A stretch of 34,078 nucleotides of DNA from Phycisphaerae bacterium (GTDB lineage Bacteria > Planctomycetota > Phycisphaerae > Sedimentisphaerales > Anaerobacaceae). This document shows positions 23,060 to 33,346 of the stretch, one piece after another. Both the position numbers and the translations under genes were made by a program. Within the stretch, counting starts at the first letter, position 1. The number at the start of each line of letters is the position of its first letter. The notes beneath the pieces were generated by a model, which saw only the letters and a program-made list of their open reading frames with translations, did not search any database and was not told where the DNA came from. The stretch is from contig JAUWIU010000010.1 in the NCBI GenBank assembly GCA_030608075.1, positions 1-34,078 of the forward strand, read 5' to 3'.

Positions 23060-24079
23060 ATGTCTGATTTTGCTAAATCGATAATAGTTGATTTTTGGGC
23101 GACGGTCGCCGAAATGTCACCCTATTTGTTATTCGGCTTGTTCGCTGCCGGCATTCTTTCTGTGCTTGTATCGCAAAGTATAGTGGAAAGACATCTTGGC
23201 GGTAAAGGGATATGGCCCTTGGTTAAGGCATCGCTTTTCGGTGTTCCGCTGCCTTTGTGTTCGTGCGGCGTCATTCCGGTATCAATGTCGCTGCATAAGC
23301 ACGGTGCGAGCAAAGGGTCGGTAATATCTTTTTTGCTCTCCACGCCTCAGACCGGTGCCGACAGCGTGCTTGTGACGTTGAGTCTTCTGGGACCACTTTT
23401 TGCCGTTTTCCGACCAGTCGCAGCGTTCATAACCGGTATCATTGGTGGCTCATTGATTAATGTGTTCGACAAAGAGCAAGAAAAGAAAGGGCAGAAGCCG
23501 CAGGAACGGACAGAACAATGCTGCCCTGGAAACCAAAACAAAAAAATCGTTAGATGCTTAAAATATGGTTTTGTTACACTGCCGCGGGATATCGGCAGAG
23601 CAATGCTTGTGGGATTGGCTATCGCGGCTGTTATTTCTGCATTGATACCCGATGGGTACTTTGCAGAAAGACTGGGGACGGGGATTTTTGCAATGGTGGT
23701 GATGATGTTTTTGGGGATACCGGTTTATGTGTGTGCAACAGCGTCGGTGCCAGTAGCGGCAGCATTGATATTGAAAGGCCTGACGCCGGGTGCTGCGCTG
23801 GTCTTTCTTATGACCGGGCCGGCCACCAACGCAGCGTCATTTGTGACTATCTGGAAAACATTGGGCCGCAGAACCGCAATTACTTATCTTCTTACCGTAG
23901 CAGGTTCTGCCCTTTTAGCAGGGATGCTGCTGGATTTCCTCGCTGGGGGCACCGACTTCAACGTCGTTTCTAAGACCGGTTGGATGCTGCCATCCGTAGT
24001 CAAGTCCGGGTCAGCGATAGTTCTTTTGGCGGTGTTGGGCGCAGCGATTGTCCATAAACCAGGAAGCAAAGTAACATAG
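23060..24079 (+). CDS. SO_0444-type metal efflux permease (DUF318)
   Basis: A 339-residue membrane protein with about eight to ten helices. The helix-2 motif VPLPLCSCGVIPVSMSLHKHGASKGS and the following LLSTPQTGADSVLVTLSLLG are the hallmarks of SO_0444 permeases, thought to export copper, zinc or similar ions. The second half repeats the pattern (VYVCATASVPVAAALILKG, FLMTGPATNAASF). A short charged loop with CC (residues 150-160) joins the halves. It is a distant relative of the permease at 10885-12195 but lacks its soluble insert. The next gene, 18 bases on, is an MntP-type manganese exporter, so this pair looks like a metal-efflux unit. Confidence 0.88.
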   Translation: MSDFAKSIIVDFWATVAEMSPYLLFGLFAAGILSVLVSQSIVERHLGGKGIWPLVKASLFGVPLPLCSCGVIPVSMSLHKHGASKGSVISFLLSTPQTGADSVLVTLSLLGPLFAVFRPVAAFITGIIGGSLINVFDKEQEKKGQKPQERTEQCCPGNQNKKIVRCLKYGFVTLPRDIGRAMLVGLAIAAVISALIPDGYFAERLGTGIFAMVVMMFLGIPVYVCATASVPVAAALILKGLTPGAALVFLMTGPATNAASFVTIWKTLGRRTAITYLLTVAGSALLAGMLLDFLAGGTDFNVVSKTGWMLPSVVKSGSAIVLLAVLGAAIVHKPGSKVT

Positions 24080-24097
24080 AGTTATTTTCAGGGAACT

Positions 24098-24658
24098 GTG
24101 GGCTTTGTCACAATAGGACTTATAGCTGTCGGTTTGGCAATGGATGCTTTTGCAGTCTCTATTGTCAACGGAGCAGTCTGCAAGCAGTTAAATGTGAAGC
24201 AGGCCTTTCGAATAGCGTCTTTTTTCGGCGGTTTTCAGGCCCTTATGCCGTTGATAGGTTACCTGGCGGGCCTAAGCATAAAAGAATACATAGGCCCCTA
24301 CAACCATTGGGTAGCCTTCGGTTTGCTGAGCGGTGTCGGAGGCAGGATGGTCTATGAATCATTCAGGACCAAGACTGAGCATGAAAGTTTTGGGCCTTTG
24401 AGTATTTTGAGCCTGCTGGTCTTGTCCGTTGCCACAAGTATCGATGCACTGGTGGTGGGAATAACCCTGCCGTTTCTGAGAATTTCCATCGCAATGGCTG
24501 TGATTGTCATTGGTCTGGTAACATTTGCGCTGTCGTTTTTTGGCGTGTTCGTCGGAAAAAGGTTCGGGCACTTGTTCGAAAATAAAATCGAAGCCGTAGG
24601 CGGGGTGGTCCTCATCGGCCTTGGCCTCAAAATACTGTTTGAGCACGTGTTTTTCTAA
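24098..24658 (+). CDS. mntP: MntP-type manganese efflux pump
   Basis: A 186-residue membrane protein with six helices, matching MntP. Two half-repeats each carry a conserved aspartate motif: GLAMDAFAVSIVNG in the first, and SVATSIDALVVGITLPFL in the second. FFGGFQALMPLIGYLAG and the final IEAVGGVVLIGLGLKIL are also characteristic. It exports excess Mn(II). GTG 24098 is the only start near the family N-terminus, with CAGGGA before. No yybP-ykoY manganese riboswitch was seen upstream. It is cotranscribed in all likelihood with the permease 18 bases before. Confidence 0.92.
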   Translation: MGFVTIGLIAVGLAMDAFAVSIVNGAVCKQLNVKQAFRIASFFGGFQALMPLIGYLAGLSIKEYIGPYNHWVAFGLLSGVGGRMVYESFRTKTEHESFGPLSILSLLVLSVATSIDALVVGITLPFLRISIAMAVIVIGLVTFALSFFGVFVGKRFGHLFENKIEAVGGVVLIGLGLKILFEHVFF

Positions 24659-26524: not shown

Positions 26525-27301
26525 TCATTCCAAATCGTACGCACTGTTATCCGGCGACAGGAAACCCGTTCCTTCGGCGATTTTGTCTTTTGCCCACTTG
26601 TCCGTCTCGGTATAAAACTGCCGAACGCTTCTGGCACTTCCGTCGCAGTACGCCACGTTTGTCCTGCCCAAATGACGGTATCCTTGCGTACCTGCATATC
26701 TGCCCGAAGCCGAAAAATCCTCGTCGAGATTGCCTGCAAAAGGAGCACGCATAAATTTGTTCGCACCGTTTGCGTACTGGCCGTCTCCAAAAATGGCACA
26801 GGCGGCGGGTCTCCTCACTTGTGTAACCCTTGCCGACGGTATCAAAATTCTTTTGCCTGACCAGAGGTCCTGACGATGGCTGCCGCCTATGTAGCTGGCA
26901 TTATAGTTATAGCCCGTGTATGGTTCCCCGTGCCAATTATCGGCGCCCCTGAAAGAGGGACACTGCTGTATCTTCAAGAGGGTTTGCCCTTCCCACAAAA
27001 TACCTGGTGCGAATCTCTTGTTCTTGCCGCTGCTGTCGGTGATAGTGACAAAATCCCAGGTGTATTCATAAACCTTATTGTGTCGTTCGGTTCTGACATC
27101 CTGGGTCAATGGATAGTAACCGTCATTATTATTAGCATAGATTTGAGCTGCTATTGTCATTTGTCTCAGGTTGTTCAAACAGGCAATACCTTTTCCATAT
27201 TGGCGTGCCGTTGCCAGCGCCGGCATCAGTATTGCCGCCAGAACCGATATCACCGATATCACCACCAGTACTTCTATCAGCGTAAGTCCTTTTGTTCTCA
27301 T
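26525..27301 (-). CDS. Prepilin-like protein with H-x9-DG motif
   Basis: A 258-residue planctomycete prepilin-like protein. The N-terminus MRTKGLTLIEVLVVISVIS is a class III signal, cut after G5. Near the C-terminus GYRHLGRTNVAYCDGSAR gives the H-x9-DG motif that names the family. The middle has tyrosine-, asparagine- and glycine-rich loops (YANNNDGYYPL, YTGYNYNASYIGG). ATG 27301 is used because it places the signal at the end; the start lies 7 bases after the stop of the dockerin-like gene, so these are cotranscribed. It is the last gene of the cobalamin-riboswitch operon. Role in the operon unknown; pilus-like display or a minor pseudopilin are possibilities. Confidence 0.85.
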   Translation of the reverse strand: MRTKGLTLIEVLVVISVISVLAAILMPALATARQYGKGIACLNNLRQMTIAAQIYANNNDGYYPLTQDVRTERHNKVYEYTWDFVTITDSSGKNKRFAPGILWEGQTLLKIQQCPSFRGADNWHGEPYTGYNYNASYIGGSHRQDLWSGKRILIPSARVTQVRRPAACAIFGDGQYANGANKFMRAPFAGNLDEDFSASGRYAGTQGYRHLGRTNVAYCDGSARSVRQFYTETDKWAKDKIAEGTGFLSPDNSAYDLE

Positions 27302-27308
27302 AGGTCTC

Positions 27309-28223
27309 TCAGGGACAATCCCATGTGCAATCCAGCCAGTGCGCCGCAATCAAACCAAAATCCAACATATCCACTCTGCAGTCTTTATTAAGGTCGCCGA
27401 CTGGAAACGGGTGTCTGTAGTCTCCGCAGCAAGTGACGTCGGAAATTGCATCTATTTCGGTAGTAACGTCGCTGCGGGGGTCGTCCTCAATACGAACATA
27501 TTGAATCCAGGCGAATCCGAATACGCCGATATCGAAACCGGTGCCGCCGGCCGAGCCATTGTAAAGTTCGATAACTTCGGCCACGGTCATGCCGTCCATC
27601 TCAGCCGCACTTAAATTCGGGTCCAACGGCCGTGTGGGGTCAAGCTCCGTGCCCCAAACGTCATTTACATCATCCCACCTGTAAGCCGCTGTGGGGGCAA
27701 AATCGTCGGCATAAGGCCCGTCTGAGAAAGTGTACCAGGTTTGTCCGTCCTGGCTGACGGAAACAATTCCGGGCTCGCTCGCCACCGCACCGCTTACTAT
27801 TGTCTGCTCAGGATTGCCAAAATCCCAGTCCTGTTCATTTCCATTAACCAGTGCAATAACCAGAAATGAGTTGCCAAACACAATAAAATCTACGCCATAC
27901 GGATTATTCCGGTCGTTTTCAAGAGGATGACTGAACTTAACCGTCAGCCGACCGCCGTCGCCAATTGTAATCACCTGATTGGCAAGCCATGGCTGAAAAA
28001 CCGGCACCACCGGCTCGGTTTCAGGATAACGTTTACCGCCCGTTTCCAGCGAAGGCCTGCCGACGGCGCTGTTGGGGTCATTGTGTAGTCCCACCCCTGA
28101 GCCCTCAACGTAATCGATAACCTCGATAGCAAAATCGTTTGCGTCATAGTCGTAGGCCTTTGTTATCGCGGCGAAACTAAACAATGCGTAAGCAAGAGCT
28201 ATAAACATTTTTTTCCGGTGCAT
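27309..28223 (-). CDS. Secreted cell-surface protein with C-terminal dockerin-like repeat
   Basis: A 304-residue exported protein (signal peptide MHRKKMFIALAYALFSFAAITKA). The body contains GVDFIVFGNSFL followed by SEPGIVSVSQDGQTWYTF, a beta-sandwich pattern that also occurs, as far as I recall, in surface proteins encoded in cobalamin-regulated loci of Bacteroidota. The C-terminus is a dockerin-like calcium loop, GDLNKDCRVDMLDFGLIAAHW. ATG 28223 gives the signal peptide; the frame is open further upstream but into the PEP-CTERM gene spacer. It is the second gene of the riboswitch-controlled operon, between the PEP-CTERM protein and the prepilin-like protein. A role in cobalamin capture is inference from regulation. 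Confidence 0.8.
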   Translation of the reverse strand: MHRKKMFIALAYALFSFAAITKAYDYDANDFAIEVIDYVEGSGVGLHNDPNSAVGRPSLETGGKRYPETEPVVPVFQPWLANQVITIGDGGRLTVKFSHPLENDRNNPYGVDFIVFGNSFLVIALVNGNEQDWDFGNPEQTIVSGAVASEPGIVSVSQDGQTWYTFSDGPYADDFAPTAAYRWDDVNDVWGTELDPTRPLDPNLSAAEMDGMTVAEVIELYNGSAGGTGFDIGVFGFAWIQYVRIEDDPRSDVTTEIDAISDVTCCGDYRHPFPVGDLNKDCRVDMLDFGLIAAHWLDCTWDCP

Positions 28224-28298
28224 TGTCTTTGCTTCCCACATTATTGGTGGTGCCATGGCGGCGGCCCCACCGGTTTGTCGAGGTAACATAGACCTTCT

Positions 28299-28814
28299 TT
28301 AGTTAGCCGAGTCTGGCTTCGCTCGGGCCCTGCGAACAAGCAACCCGCCAAGACACAACAGCAGCAAAGTGCTCGGTTCCGGGACTGTCCCGGCCCGCCC
28401 GTAAATCCAGCCATCCATATCACCACTGGAAACCACCCTGTCGCTGGCTCCATAAGGCGGGCTGACCCAGTCCGCATCGCCTCTTTTTACCCAGTAATGC
28501 CACCAGTCTTCACCGCCGGCGTAGCCCACATTACTGTGGGCGTTGTATGTTATCCCGTCGATGAAAACTCCAAATCCAAAGTCACTTCGCAGCGTCGTAA
28601 GTGAAGAATACGCCTCTACGGTATCGAACAGCCCAAGGCCGCTGACTGTCGGCTCATCAAAATTGACCAGGAATTCGGCCACACAGCCGTCGCTCCACTC
28701 GATATAAAGCCCGGCACTGTTTTCACCCGTGCCGACATCCATAGCAGTCGCCGCTGCCGACGAACTTGTTACTCCCAGAAAAGCAATTAAAGAAATCAAA
28801 CTTATGAGCTTCAT
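28299..28814 (-). CDS. PEP-CTERM surface protein with DUF4430/transcobalamin-like domain
   Basis: A 171-residue exported protein. Residues 1-21 are a signal peptide. The C-terminus VPEPSTLLLLCLGGLLVRRARA is a PEP-CTERM sorting tag: VPEP motif, helix and arginine cluster, which an exosortase would process. In between, FGFGVFIDGITY, WWHYWVKRGDADW and YGASDRVVSSGDMDGWIYG follow the DUF4430 pattern (strand ending in DGI, W-x-Y-x-V, then GA...GD...W-x-Y), the fold of the C-terminal domain of transcobalamin and intrinsic factor. ATG 28814 follows GAAGGAGAG. It is the first gene after a cobalamin riboswitch, so surface binding of B12 is a strong hypothesis. Domain assignment is by eye. Confidence 0.78.
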   Translation of the reverse strand: MKLISLISLIAFLGVTSSSAAATAMDVGTGENSAGLYIEWSDGCVAEFLVNFDEPTVSGLGLFDTVEAYSSLTTLRSDFGFGVFIDGITYNAHSNVGYAGGEDWWHYWVKRGDADWVSPPYGASDRVVSSGDMDGWIYGRAGTVPEPSTLLLLCLGGLLVRRARAKPDSAN

Positions 28815-28920
28815 CGTTTCTCTCCTTCAATTCAAAATCGCCGCTTGTTTTCAGAGGCCTTTGTACTTTCCTGATGTTTCTATTTTCTGTGGTACATCAA
28901 AGACCCTGAGTTGAAATCCG

Positions 28921-28960
28921 ACAATCGTGTTACGTGTTCGATTGTATTTACCTCCTTTCC
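28921..28960 (-). promoter_or_regulatory. Orphan SD-like sequence and hairpin in the riboswitch leader
   Basis: On the minus strand GGAAAGGAGG (28960-28951) is a near-perfect ribosome binding site with no start codon in range. It is followed by ACAATCG-N11-CGATTGT (28945-28921), a 7-bp hairpin. It lies after the terminator and 107 bases before the PEP-CTERM start. It may be a leftover leader gene or extra control of the mRNA. Confidence 0.3.
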
Positions 28961-28993
28961 TGGTACTCGGCCCTTGACGCGAGGGCGCCCAAC

Positions 28994-29029
28994 AAAAAAA
29001 CCACCGTTCCCGCGAAGGAAACGATGGTT
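28994..29029 (-). terminator. Intrinsic terminator downstream of the cobalamin riboswitch
   Basis: On the minus strand the arms AACCATCGTTTCC (29029-29017) and GGAACGGTGGTT (29010-28999) pair along 12 bp with one bulged base, then TTTTTTT follows. Placed between the riboswitch and its first gene, it fits transcription attenuation when cobalamin is bound. Confidence 0.85.
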
Positions 29030-29114
29030 TTTGCTGTCACTTTCGTCTGACGTGCAAGGTCAATCAGGCAAACAAATCACACCATGTTCGGCCCGCGAGA
29101 ACACTATAAATGTG

Positions 29115-29322
29115 AAGCCGACCACAGGCAGGTTTTCTGACTTGCGTCTTACCTCGAGACTCCTTCCCATTCGCCCGTTGCGAACAGTGGAACAAAATGT
29201 CACTCGGATTTCCGATTTTTACTCGGAACAGACACTTACAGCGGCGCGCCCGCCGCGGATTTTAACCGCGTTCCCTTTTGACTATTCCAAAGCCCGGTGC
29301 TCTGGAACCTGCAGTCAGGTTA
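29115..29322 (-). ncRNA. Cobalamin (B12) riboswitch
   Basis: Minus strand, about 190 bases. The 3' B12 box reads AAGTCAGAAAACCTGCC (29143-29127), a close match to the consensus. Its AACCTGC pairs with GCAGGTT (29312-29306) to close the P1 stem. Inside are the conserved GGGAACGCGGTTAAAATCCG, then GCCGCTGTAA, and GGGAAGGAGTC, in the right order. The downstream terminator and the PEP-CTERM/dockerin/prepilin operon show what it controls. Binding of adenosylcobalamin or a related form should switch the operon off. Confidence 0.93.
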
Positions 29323-29398
29323 TGTTCTTTTCAAAGAGCAAACTATCAACTTTTTAGCATATTATCTGACGGCGCTCAAGCAAAAAAACAAAAATTTC

Positions 29399-30247
29399 TC
29401 ACTGTCCGAGATAGATTACGATACCGGCTAAAATCAAAATAGCAGACACACATACGCCGACAGCCGTCAAGAACATCCACATAAAGCGCTTATTCTGCCT
29501 GGAAATGATGTACTTGAGGTATCTGTCGCTGGTGGCAAAGGTTTTGCTCATCTGCATGATTCCATCGGTTTGGCTGATGGTGCTCTGGTTCAGTTTGTCG
29601 AGCGTGCCGTTGAAGCTGTTGAAACTCTCGGCCATCTGGACATCGGTATCGGCAACGGCGGCAAGCTGATGGTCTATATCGGCCAGAGCGTCAGTTTGTT
29701 TTGCGGTCGCTGTCGGGATTTTCTCAACAGCGTCAATAAACTGCTGGTTCCTGGCGGCGGTTGTTTTCAGATGTTCGAGTAACTGTTCGATTAACTGCTT
29801 CTGATTTTCAACAACAGTCGGAAAGGTTTCAAGCAGCTTCGGCATGTTATCTATTCGGCTCATCAAATCTTCCTGCTGTACAACTTGTCGGTCGAGATGC
29901 TCGTTGATGCCGCGCAGTTGTTCAACGAGTTTGTTAAAGCCGTTTTGGAGTTTTTCGAGCGATTCATGTTTATTCATCGGCTGGGCCGCCTTGACCACAA
30001 CCTTGTTGGTTTCAACAGTGGTCTGCTCATTCTCTGCCGGCGCTGCCAGCCCGGCATCTTCACTAATCAGGCCCTGGTCATCAACCTGCGGCTGATACGC
30101 TTCAACCCCGGATAATTTGTGAGTCCGCAGCCAGCTATTGGCTTTCGCTTTGAATTCTCGTAATGCCATTGTCAGATTCCTCAAAACCCCAGGACGCTTT
30201 TCGCCGTCCAGACTGTTTTTCAAAACAGCATCTACAATTCGCCCCAT
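29399..30247 (-). CDS. Tail-anchored coiled-coil membrane protein
   Basis: A 282-residue protein, not assigned to a known family. It starts MGRIVDAVLKNSLDGEKR, has a charged linker with many glutamines, and from residue 95 a long predicted coiled coil with heptad-like spacing (LEKLQNGFNKLVEQLRGINEHLD, then further helices to residue 250). It ends in one membrane helix, FMWMFLTAVGVCVSAILILAGIVIYL, leaving a three-residue tail, so the bulk faces the cytoplasm. Sequence composition resembles the coiled-coil parts of chemoreceptors but without a signalling tip. ATG 30247 follows AGAGGAAA. It is divergent from the next gene. Function unknown. Confidence 0.7.
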   Translation of the reverse strand: MGRIVDAVLKNSLDGEKRPGVLRNLTMALREFKAKANSWLRTHKLSGVEAYQPQVDDQGLISEDAGLAAPAENEQTTVETNKVVVKAAQPMNKHESLEKLQNGFNKLVEQLRGINEHLDRQVVQQEDLMSRIDNMPKLLETFPTVVENQKQLIEQLLEHLKTTAARNQQFIDAVEKIPTATAKQTDALADIDHQLAAVADTDVQMAESFNSFNGTLDKLNQSTISQTDGIMQMSKTFATSDRYLKYIISRQNKRFMWMFLTAVGVCVSAILILAGIVIYLGQ

Positions 30248-30383
30248 ACAATTTCCTCTTTCAATTAACATCCATTAGAAAAGTCTACTGGTGCAACGTC
30301 AAGCTGTTTTTTACTGTCTCTATCCCATAAAACGCTGTAATATACTCATACTACTAATATATCGGGAAAAGAAAGGTCAAAAC

Positions 30384-31579: not shown

Positions 31580-33346
31580 TCAGGGGGTGTTTTTGAGCCA
31601 ACACTCGGCAAAGAAAGCCAAATCGAAGCCGTCGACTTTGCCGTCTCCGTCTGGTGCCGGCGCGATGTCGGCAGACGGTGTGCCGGGCGGTTGCTGCCAC
31701 TGCTCAGCCAGTATGGCAAAGTCTCCGGAATCTACGCTGCCGTCATTGTTGATATCGCCGGGACCTGGTCTGGCAGCGTAGCCGGTGATGGCGAAGTTCC
31801 ACGAGATGTCGTTCCACTCGGTGTTGAAGCTGCCATAGGCGTCATAGTCGATGAAATCCAACCATTGGCCCGAAGCATTGCGGTAGAAGCTTTCATCGGC
31901 AGCGGCCGCCGAATAAACATCGTAGGGCGGGTCGGTAATAGTACCCCCTGCGATGTTCCCGCCTGACGTGTCAAACTTATAGAAGCCTTCGGTGATATCT
32001 TCTGTGTAATAGATGTCCTCGGGCGGCTCGGCAATCGGGCCCATCGCAACGTACAGTCTGAACGATGCATCAAAGGCATAACCGCCTTTGTCGACTTCAA
32101 CGGTTATGAAAAACACGTTACCGGCATTCAGGCTCACCGCACCGGCAAGGTCGACTATATGAAACCCGGGCCCGGCTATGGTTCCACTTGTTTGACTGAC
32201 GGCAGAGCTGCTGAGGTTATCTTTGTAGATGCTCATAGTATAGTTTACGTTGTCAGCTAAAGTATAGAAACCGACCGCCTTGAGATGTTCGGTTTGCTGT
32301 GCGACAAACCGATTGGCTGCCGCAGTAATATTCGGGTCGCTGGCGGTGTCATACTGCCATCCGTGGAGCGAATGGCTGTAGACGTTATCAAACCTGGACG
32401 GCTCGACACCGCTGAAGGTTACGCCGCCCATCTCCGGGTGTCTGGCTGTGTGCTTGTCGTAGTATGAAATCCAGAAATGCCCGTCTCCGTTCCAGGTATC
32501 TCCCCAGCTATTTCTACACAGCCATGCACCGGGCTGTTCGGCCTGGGTAGGTTTGTTGTCATCCCAGCCCACGATAGCGACTGCGTGGTTAGGCTGGTTA
32601 GGGTCGCCGGCAGGCTGGTAGTGTGTACCGTTGGAGTAGAATCCACCGCCCGAATACATGCAGGTAGCCACTGAACCCGCAGCGATGACGGCTTTTTTTA
32701 TCCGTTGTCGCTTTTCGACATCCGTGCCGGACAACGTATGCCACTGGACGTGACGCGGCATAAAATACACATAATTATCATCAGACTTCTGGATTCCATC
32801 AAAGTCGGAGTATCCGAATTTCGCACGTTTAGCGGGGTAATCAGTATCAGGTGCGGTTATTTCGGTATCCTCGGTCTCATTTACTGCGCCGTGATTGGTC
32901 AGGAAAGCGGTTGCGATACGGTAATCGCCCCCGAGATGAACTATCAGGCCGTGCGTTCGACTCTCCAGCGGCTCATCGGTGTTGCTGCCCGGAAATGGCG
33001 GCCCCTGGCCGGTGTACCAACTGTTACTGGGTATCTCGTCTCCGTCCATACCTTTTCGGGTGAAGCCATTGAATTTGTCAAGATGGTATTCAGCCAGGTC
33101 TACCTGGCCGCTCATACCGGCATCGGCCCAGCTGCCGGTCATGGTGAGGTTGCTCTCCATTGCAGCAGTGGTGCCGTGAATCCAGCACGTGCCCCAGGAT
33201 TGGTCGCGAACGGCGGTGGTGTAGTCAGTTGTGCCGTCAGCATAGTAGTCACGAAGGTCGAAGCTGGTGTCGGTGTAATTCGGCTCGGCAAATGCTGAAA
33301 CCGAAAGAGCACAAAGCACAAAGGCAATTACCGCCGGCTTATTCAT
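31580..33346 (-). CDS. Secreted papain-family (C1) peptidase with dockerin-like repeats
   Basis: A 588-residue exported protease. Signal peptide MNKPAVIAFVLCALSVSAFA. The C1 catalytic residues are all present: Q49 (oxyanion hole) and C54 in RDQSWGTCWIHGTTAAMES, H254 in PNHAVAIVGWDDN, and N279 in CRNSWGDTWNGDGHFWISYYD. No propeptide is obvious, and the DYYADGTTDYTTAVRDQ start suggests an unusual short pre-region. A beta-sandwich (residues 330-460) follows, and then two dockerin-like loops: GDINNDGSVDSGDFAILAEQW and PDGDGKVDGFDLAFFAECW. ATG 33346 follows AGCAGGAC. It is likely to degrade protein outside the cell or to act on a surface complex. Confidence 0.9.
   Translation of the reverse strand: MNKPAVIAFVLCALSVSAFAEPNYTDTSFDLRDYYADGTTDYTTAVRDQSWGTCWIHGTTAAMESNLTMTGSWADAGMSGQVDLAEYHLDKFNGFTRKGMDGDEIPSNSWYTGQGPPFPGSNTDEPLESRTHGLIVHLGGDYRIATAFLTNHGAVNETEDTEITAPDTDYPAKRAKFGYSDFDGIQKSDDNYVYFMPRHVQWHTLSGTDVEKRQRIKKAVIAAGSVATCMYSGGGFYSNGTHYQPAGDPNQPNHAVAIVGWDDNKPTQAEQPGAWLCRNSWGDTWNGDGHFWISYYDKHTARHPEMGGVTFSGVEPSRFDNVYSHSLHGWQYDTASDPNITAAANRFVAQQTEHLKAVGFYTLADNVNYTMSIYKDNLSSSAVSQTSGTIAGPGFHIVDLAGAVSLNAGNVFFITVEVDKGGYAFDASFRLYVAMGPIAEPPEDIYYTEDITEGFYKFDTSGGNIAGGTITDPPYDVYSAAAADESFYRNASGQWLDFIDYDAYGSFNTEWNDISWNFAITGYAARPGPGDINNDGSVDSGDFAILAEQWQQPPGTPSADIAPAPDGDGKVDGFDLAFFAECWLKNTP

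Follow-up and report, generated by a model that had tools for sequence, protein, structure and literature searches.

The stretch analysed here, referred to as the window, comprises 34,078 nucleotides of contig JAUWIU010000010.1 from a Phycisphaerae bacterium (Planctomycetota), and it contains a three-gene operon that is preceded by a cobalamin riboswitch. The order on the minus strand is riboswitch, terminator, P1, P2 and P3, and all three gene products are predicted to be exported. The host genome has a size of 1.5 Mb and is 67% complete, and the closest named relative found in our searches was a Sedimentisphaerales metagenome-assembled genome (L073). The features of the operon are the following.

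29110..29327, minus strand: cobalamin riboswitch aptamer RF00174 (cmscan, 85.6 bits, E 5.9e-20)
about 28994..29033, minus strand: intrinsic terminator of the leader, a hairpin of about 15 bp followed by U7 (RNA folding)
28299..28814, minus strand: P1, 171 amino acids, exported, predicted transcobalamin beta-domain/DUF4430-like fold and PEP-CTERM tail (AlphaFold2, structure comparison, PF07589)
28323..28388, minus strand: PEP-CTERM sorting signal of P1, residues 143-164 (PF07589, E 4.9e-5, and TIGR02595, above cut-off)
27309..28289, minus strand: P2, open reading frame of 326 amino acids, exported, predicted BtuH-like cobalamin-binding domain (AlphaFold2, fold and family-profile matches)
27429..28154, minus strand: BtuH-like domain of P2, containing Asn140 and Phe142 of an FGNSF motif (structure-alignment range, profile alignment)
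27333..27398, minus strand: dockerin-like segment at the C-terminus of P2 (PF00404, E 0.11, 13.1 bits, below the cut-off of 22.9)
26525..27301, minus strand: P3, prepilin-like, with N-methylation signal, H-X9-DG motif and the C-terminal sequence GFLSPDNSAYDLE (PF07963 and TIGR04294, above cut-off)

For P2, position 28223 is a likelier translation start than the 28289 of the open reading frame because of the position of the signal peptide. For P3, the listed TTG start at 27349 overlaps P2, and an ATG at 27301 sits directly before the prepilin leader.

A sequence-only reading of this DNA had placed the operon at 26525-29322 and had described a clear B12 riboswitch and terminator in front of three genes. 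The operon and both regulatory elements were recovered, and the end point had to be moved, as the riboswitch runs to 29327. The match to the covariance model is full length (model positions 1-189), its score standing against a gathering score of 31.5 bits, and this was the single cobalamin riboswitch found in the incomplete host genome. The terminator was not picked up by a simple terminator scan, probably because the U-run overlaps the stem, and was revealed by folding. In the same way, a hairpin and a U-run were obtained in the interval from the riboswitch to the first gene at 17 of 23 loci tested.

P2 had earlier been described as dockerin-like, and its dockerin match stays below the cut-off; a BtuH-like domain is the stronger finding. 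The AlphaFold2 model of P2 (predicted local distance difference test, pLDDT, 88.6) gave as top fold matches the C-terminal domains of BtuG1 (8blw_B, Z 13.3) and BtuH2 (7biz_B, Z 13.1), with 26-29% identity over about 150 residues, and CBM32-like carbohydrate-binding modules came next at Z 9.1. Searches of the PDB with single P2 sequences yielded nothing useful and did not reach BtuH, and a search with a first P2 alignment yielded only dockerins. The relationship became detectable by sequence once distant relatives had joined the alignment: P2-family profiles matched 8blw_B with E 3.5e-6 and 1.1e-7, and a profile that included Bacteroidota relatives matched 7biz with E 1.5e-4, in all cases within the BtuH domain. 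Judged from these profiles and from the predicted structure, P2 is homologous to the B12-binding domain of Bacteroides BtuH and BtuG1. A match of P2 to the NCBIfam LIC_13355 lipoprotein model was weak and far below its cut-off, and was not used as a name.

BtuH2 binds B12 at picomolar affinity through its C-terminal domain, as determined by surface plasmon resonance, and Asn399 and Phe401 are among the contacting residues (PMC8941943). The profile alignment pairs these two residues (GNAF) with Asn140 and Phe142 of P2 (FGNSF), with BtuH2 numbered by offset; position 299 of the crystallised chain is taken as residue 399, in agreement with the construct that was reported and with the spacing Asn-x-Phe. 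The asparagine that aligns with Asn399 is invariant in an alignment of 17 sequences.

P1 consists of a signal peptide, one domain and a sorting tail. Its AlphaFold2 model, built from an alignment of 19 sequences (pLDDT 87.5), was used for a Foldseek search in which the top 19 matches were all transcobalamin, intrinsic factor, haptocorrin or DUF4430 entries, with probabilities of 0.99-1.00 and weak E-values between 0.004 and 0.25. Alignment with VIA-align to intrinsic factor, transcobalamin, haptocorrin and the DUF4430 structure 3u7z gave Z 12.4-14.4 at 1.8-2.4 Å over 96-106 residues; the best 15 entries in the structure comparison were all transcobalamin-family or DUF4430 proteins, and the next unrelated fold scored Z 6.8. 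The structural half of the earlier proposal, that P1 has a DUF4430-like domain with the fold of the C-terminal domain of transcobalamin, is borne out by these models, and the profile half is not. The PF14478 (DUF4430) profile recognised neither P1 nor any of 18 relatives with the E threshold raised to 10, and it had no match in the host genome; a search of the whole class recovered one true member (in G142), on a different contig from the listed riboswitch of that genome. A profile comparison of P1 with this true member was collinear with E 0.002, but with a probability of 13.6%, BLAST between the two gave no significant match, and a PDB sequence search with the P1 profile returned nothing useful. 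Membership of P1 in DUF4430 by profile was thus rejected on the blank PF14478 search, and the transcobalamin beta-domain/DUF4430 fold was retained as the model-based assignment; a shared fold is no proof of B12 binding.

The PEP-CTERM signal, also claimed from the letters of the sequence, was confirmed by both models and is matched in 16 of 19 members of the P1 family. Attachment by an exosortase is plausible, since an exosortase was present in all seven relatives examined; none was found in the incomplete host genome.

We looked for relatives of P2 in 248 genomes of the class and obtained a match at E 0.001 in 138 of them, some to the dockerin-like tail only. At least 54 of the 77 strongest P2 places have a riboswitch on the same strand within 4 kb upstream, at a median distance of 820 bases. 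Only one of the other 23 P2 places is in a genome with another listed riboswitch, and 54 of the 62 riboswitches listed in those genomes adjoin P2. Given that a genome of several million bases has about one riboswitch, such adjacency greatly exceeds what chance would give. The order riboswitch, P1, P2, P3 is repeated in several families, and the cassette recurs across the class and also in Kiritimatiellae and Verrucomicrobia. Variants of the order are P2, P3, P1 in Kiritimatiellae and P1, P3, P2 at two loci (L090 and L091); that the gene order has been reshuffled while the set was kept suggests that P1, P2 and P3 act together.

P1 and P2 are fused in several genomes, in one case (L080) as two P1 domains with one P2. 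These fusions bear on two alternative views of how the proteins divide the work. In the first, P2 would be the sole cobamide binder and P1 a DUF4430-fold surface protein that anchors or partners P2 and binds no B12. It is a possibility that we take seriously while judging it doubtful: homology to a proven B12-binding domain is seen at the sequence level for P2 only, the fusions suit a partnership, and the PDB describes 3u7z merely as a putative metal-binding protein, by which the fold by itself is no sign of B12 binding. Three loci (L114, L115 and L116) carry P1 and P3 behind a riboswitch with no recognised P2, and they speak for a P1 that seems able to stand alone. In the second view, P1 and P2 would form a two-part clamp in which the P1 beta domain closes over a cobamide held by the BtuH-like domain of P2, with P3 as a dedicated pseudopilus that replaces or assists a TonB-dependent receptor. 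We regard this arrangement as unlikely; if it were true, the natural fusions, including the form with two P1 domains and one P2, would be a covalent clamp.

Gene neighbourhoods in relatives connect the cassette with cobamide uptake. At L039 (G235), the order is riboswitch, P1, P2, P3, BtuF (PF01497), BtuD (PF00005) and BtuC (PF01032). At L104 (G069), the three genes are followed by CobT, CobS, a CobC-like phosphatase, BtuF and BtuD, and a BtuC match lies directly after them. At L121 (G008), a DUF4465 protein, a weak P2-like protein and P3 are followed by BtuF-, BtuD- and BtuC-like proteins, identified by position and sequence, Pfam confirmation being at hand for the DUF4465 match only. More distantly, a KSB1 locus (L100) has a riboswitch, a TonB-dependent receptor gene and a weak DUF5074-like propeller fused to a P2 domain, a layout that matches BtuG1. 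A P2-like match was also obtained in 39 of 54 genomes from one family of Bacteroidota; at most of the loci read there, the gene is flanked by a predicted TonB-receptor C-terminus on one side and by a BtuG-like lipoprotein on the other, both flanks having been read from sequence.

In the host, homologues of BtuF, BtuC and BtuD are encoded next to mutL on another contig (C37), with no riboswitch detected at these genes, and proteins with a B12-binding domain are encoded as well. BtuF and the ABC transporter genes, noted earlier as missing, are thus absent from the operon and present elsewhere in the genome. That B12 is a cue and not a cargo, the operon building a B12-switched attachment structure of pilin and surface proteins that takes no part in uptake, would suit the prepilin-like P3, the surface-sorting tail of P1 and an operon in the window that lacks a transporter gene. 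We nevertheless hold it to be highly unlikely in view of the homology of P2 to a B12-binding domain, of the gene runs in relatives that also take in BtuF, BtuD, BtuC and genes for cobamide salvage, and of the DUF4465 protein, from a family with proven B12 binding (PMC13398666), that shares a cassette with a prepilin gene at other riboswitch loci. These same gene runs and the P2-BtuH homology instead lend strong independent support to the surface B12-capture role that had been suggested for a planctomycete.

Searches for a TonB plug domain came back empty for the host, whose genome is incomplete, and for 17 of the 38 relatives searched, nearly all of which are more than 90% complete. That a TonB-dependent receptor was detected in some relatives and not in others would also fit a scheme in which P1 and P2 are secreted scavengers that hoard cobamide or deny it to neighbours and do not feed BtuFCD directly, and the Bacteroides BtuJ proteins do act in a siderophore-like manner from vesicles (PMC12751083). 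The PEP-CTERM tail predicts attachment to the cell, however, and in some relatives the cassette and BtuFCD stand in one gene run, so that we consider such scavenging distinctly unlikely.

P3, predicted as prepilin-like in the earlier reading and confirmed as such by two models above their cut-offs, is the most constant part of the cassette. Among 16 sampled riboswitch loci (L107-L122), most of them in genomes that lack a strong P2 match, 15 have a P3-like prepilin gene near the riboswitch. Many of the riboswitch-linked P3 proteins have a GFLSxDNSxYDLE-like ending. No other prepilin-like protein recovered from the host shows it, and these proteins align with P3 over the N-terminal helix region only.

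Taken together, we consider it likely that the locus is a B12-starvation operon whose products catch cobamides outside the cell, and under B12 scarcity the bacterium would probably capture the vitamin at its surface. The riboswitch and terminator are observed, the folds of P1 and P2 are predicted from models, and we infer the direction of regulation and the binding steps from the protein families and their position. When B12 is plentiful, the riboswitch would bind it and transcription would end at the terminator; when B12 is scarce, the empty riboswitch would allow the terminator to be passed and P1, P2 and P3 to be made. The transcobalamin beta-domain-like P1 and the BtuH-like P2 would then bind cobamides at the cell surface, where an exosortase would hold P1 through its PEP-CTERM tail. 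P3 may act as a dedicated pseudopilin with a role in exporting, displaying or relaying the binders. The cobamide would cross the outer membrane, after which BtuF and BtuCD, encoded on the other contig, would take over.

Several observations weigh against this capture operon. Just two of the BtuH2 contacts could be aligned with P2; Gln333, His476, Tyr510, Trp511 and Trp577 could not. P1 gave the blank DUF4430 profile search described above, and its domain layout, in a protein of 171 amino acids, has no N-terminal alpha-barrel domain of the transcobalamin type. The P1-P2-P3 operon contains no gene for an outer-membrane transporter, and the function proposed for P3 is deduced solely from its constant presence. 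In one relative that is 95% complete (G164), the riboswitch cassette is present and neither a FecCD (BtuC) permease nor a TonB plug domain was detected.

Other riboswitch loci of the class carry further exported proteins. A DUF4465 protein lies behind a B12 riboswitch in a cassette with a P3-like prepilin at L109 (1270-2064), L121 (7890-8675) and L122 (2083-2922), and PEP-CTERM was matched in two of these three proteins; one binder can thus seemingly be swapped for another, with the prepilin retained. Exported proteins of unknown family are found behind B12 riboswitches at L109 (2173-2946, with a PEP-CTERM tail), L122 (993-2030, with a dockerin match) and L118 (7549-8493), and they are candidates for further cobamide binders. 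At L117 (7363-8877), the gene between a B12 riboswitch and a P3-like prepilin encodes a PQQ-type beta-propeller protein, which may correspond to BtuG.

Within the window, a Pfam scan covered selected genes at 21.3-33.3 kb. Directly upstream of the riboswitch and on the same strand, a coiled-coil protein with a C-terminal hydrophobic segment is encoded at 29399-30271, a position that is kept in the genomes of several relatives. The gene at 31580-33346 encodes a cysteine protease of the papain family that also has a lectin-like domain and a dockerin match above cut-off, and a predicted Cu/Zn efflux permease of the SO_0444 family, adjoining an MntP-type manganese efflux pump, is encoded at 23060-24658.

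Among known systems, P2 most resembles the BtuH domain of Bacteroides thetaiotaomicron BtuH2 and BtuG1 (7biz, 8blw), with which it shares the predicted fold, detectable sequence similarity and control by a cobalamin riboswitch; an Asn/Phe pair of P2 aligns with the pair that touches B12 in BtuH2. Unlike these proteins, P2 is not a lipoprotein, as there is no cysteine at the end of its signal peptide, it has a dockerin-like C-terminus instead of PKD or propeller domains, and its operon contains neither btuB nor btuG. P1 has the same predicted fold as the beta domain of transcobalamin, intrinsic factor and haptocorrin (5np4, 2pmv, 4kki) over about 100 residues at 1.8-2.4 Å, but the identity is about 8-13%, the alpha-barrel is missing and a bacterial PEP-CTERM tail is present. 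It likewise shares the fold of DUF4430 (PF14478; 3u7z, Z 12.4), whereas P1 and its relatives have no match to the curated model. As in BtuBFCD systems, BtuF, BtuC and BtuD homologues are found in the host, and in relatives within the gene run of the cassette; a difference is that no TonB plug domain was found in the host or in the 17 relatives.

The BtuJ/DUF4465 proteins are exported cobamide binders as well, and elsewhere in the class a DUF4465 protein fills the place behind the riboswitch beside a P3-like prepilin, whereas P1 and P2 of the window have no match to PF14717 (DUF4465, BtuJ). Mucisphaera calidilacus is a planctomycete. B12 binding has been reported for eight divergent DUF4465 proteins, one of which comes from this species (PMC13398666). 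Surface capture of B12 is already known, and PEP-CTERM tails on part of the DUF4465 family have already been noted. We take IPR013424 to be the PEP-CTERM entry. It is assigned to 88 of 824 DUF4465-family sequences (PMC12751083). In the open-access literature searched, we found no description of the cassette. Nor did these searches yield an account of a prepilin linked to the cassette or of a bacterial B12 riboswitch in control of a transcobalamin-like domain.

If our interpretation is correct, it would give functions to three families of unannotated exported proteins, extend the BtuH domain well beyond the Bacteroidetes and place the transcobalamin beta-domain fold in a bacterial B12-regulated operon, and it would raise the question of how B12 passes the outer membrane where no TonB-dependent receptor is found. 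The detailed knowledge of surface B12 capture comes from gut Bacteroides, in which lipoprotein binders work with BtuB-BtuG; in one class of environmental Planctomycetota, other parts appear to do this work, namely a BtuH-type domain, a prepilin and a transcobalamin-like domain that is held by an anchor of the exosortase type.

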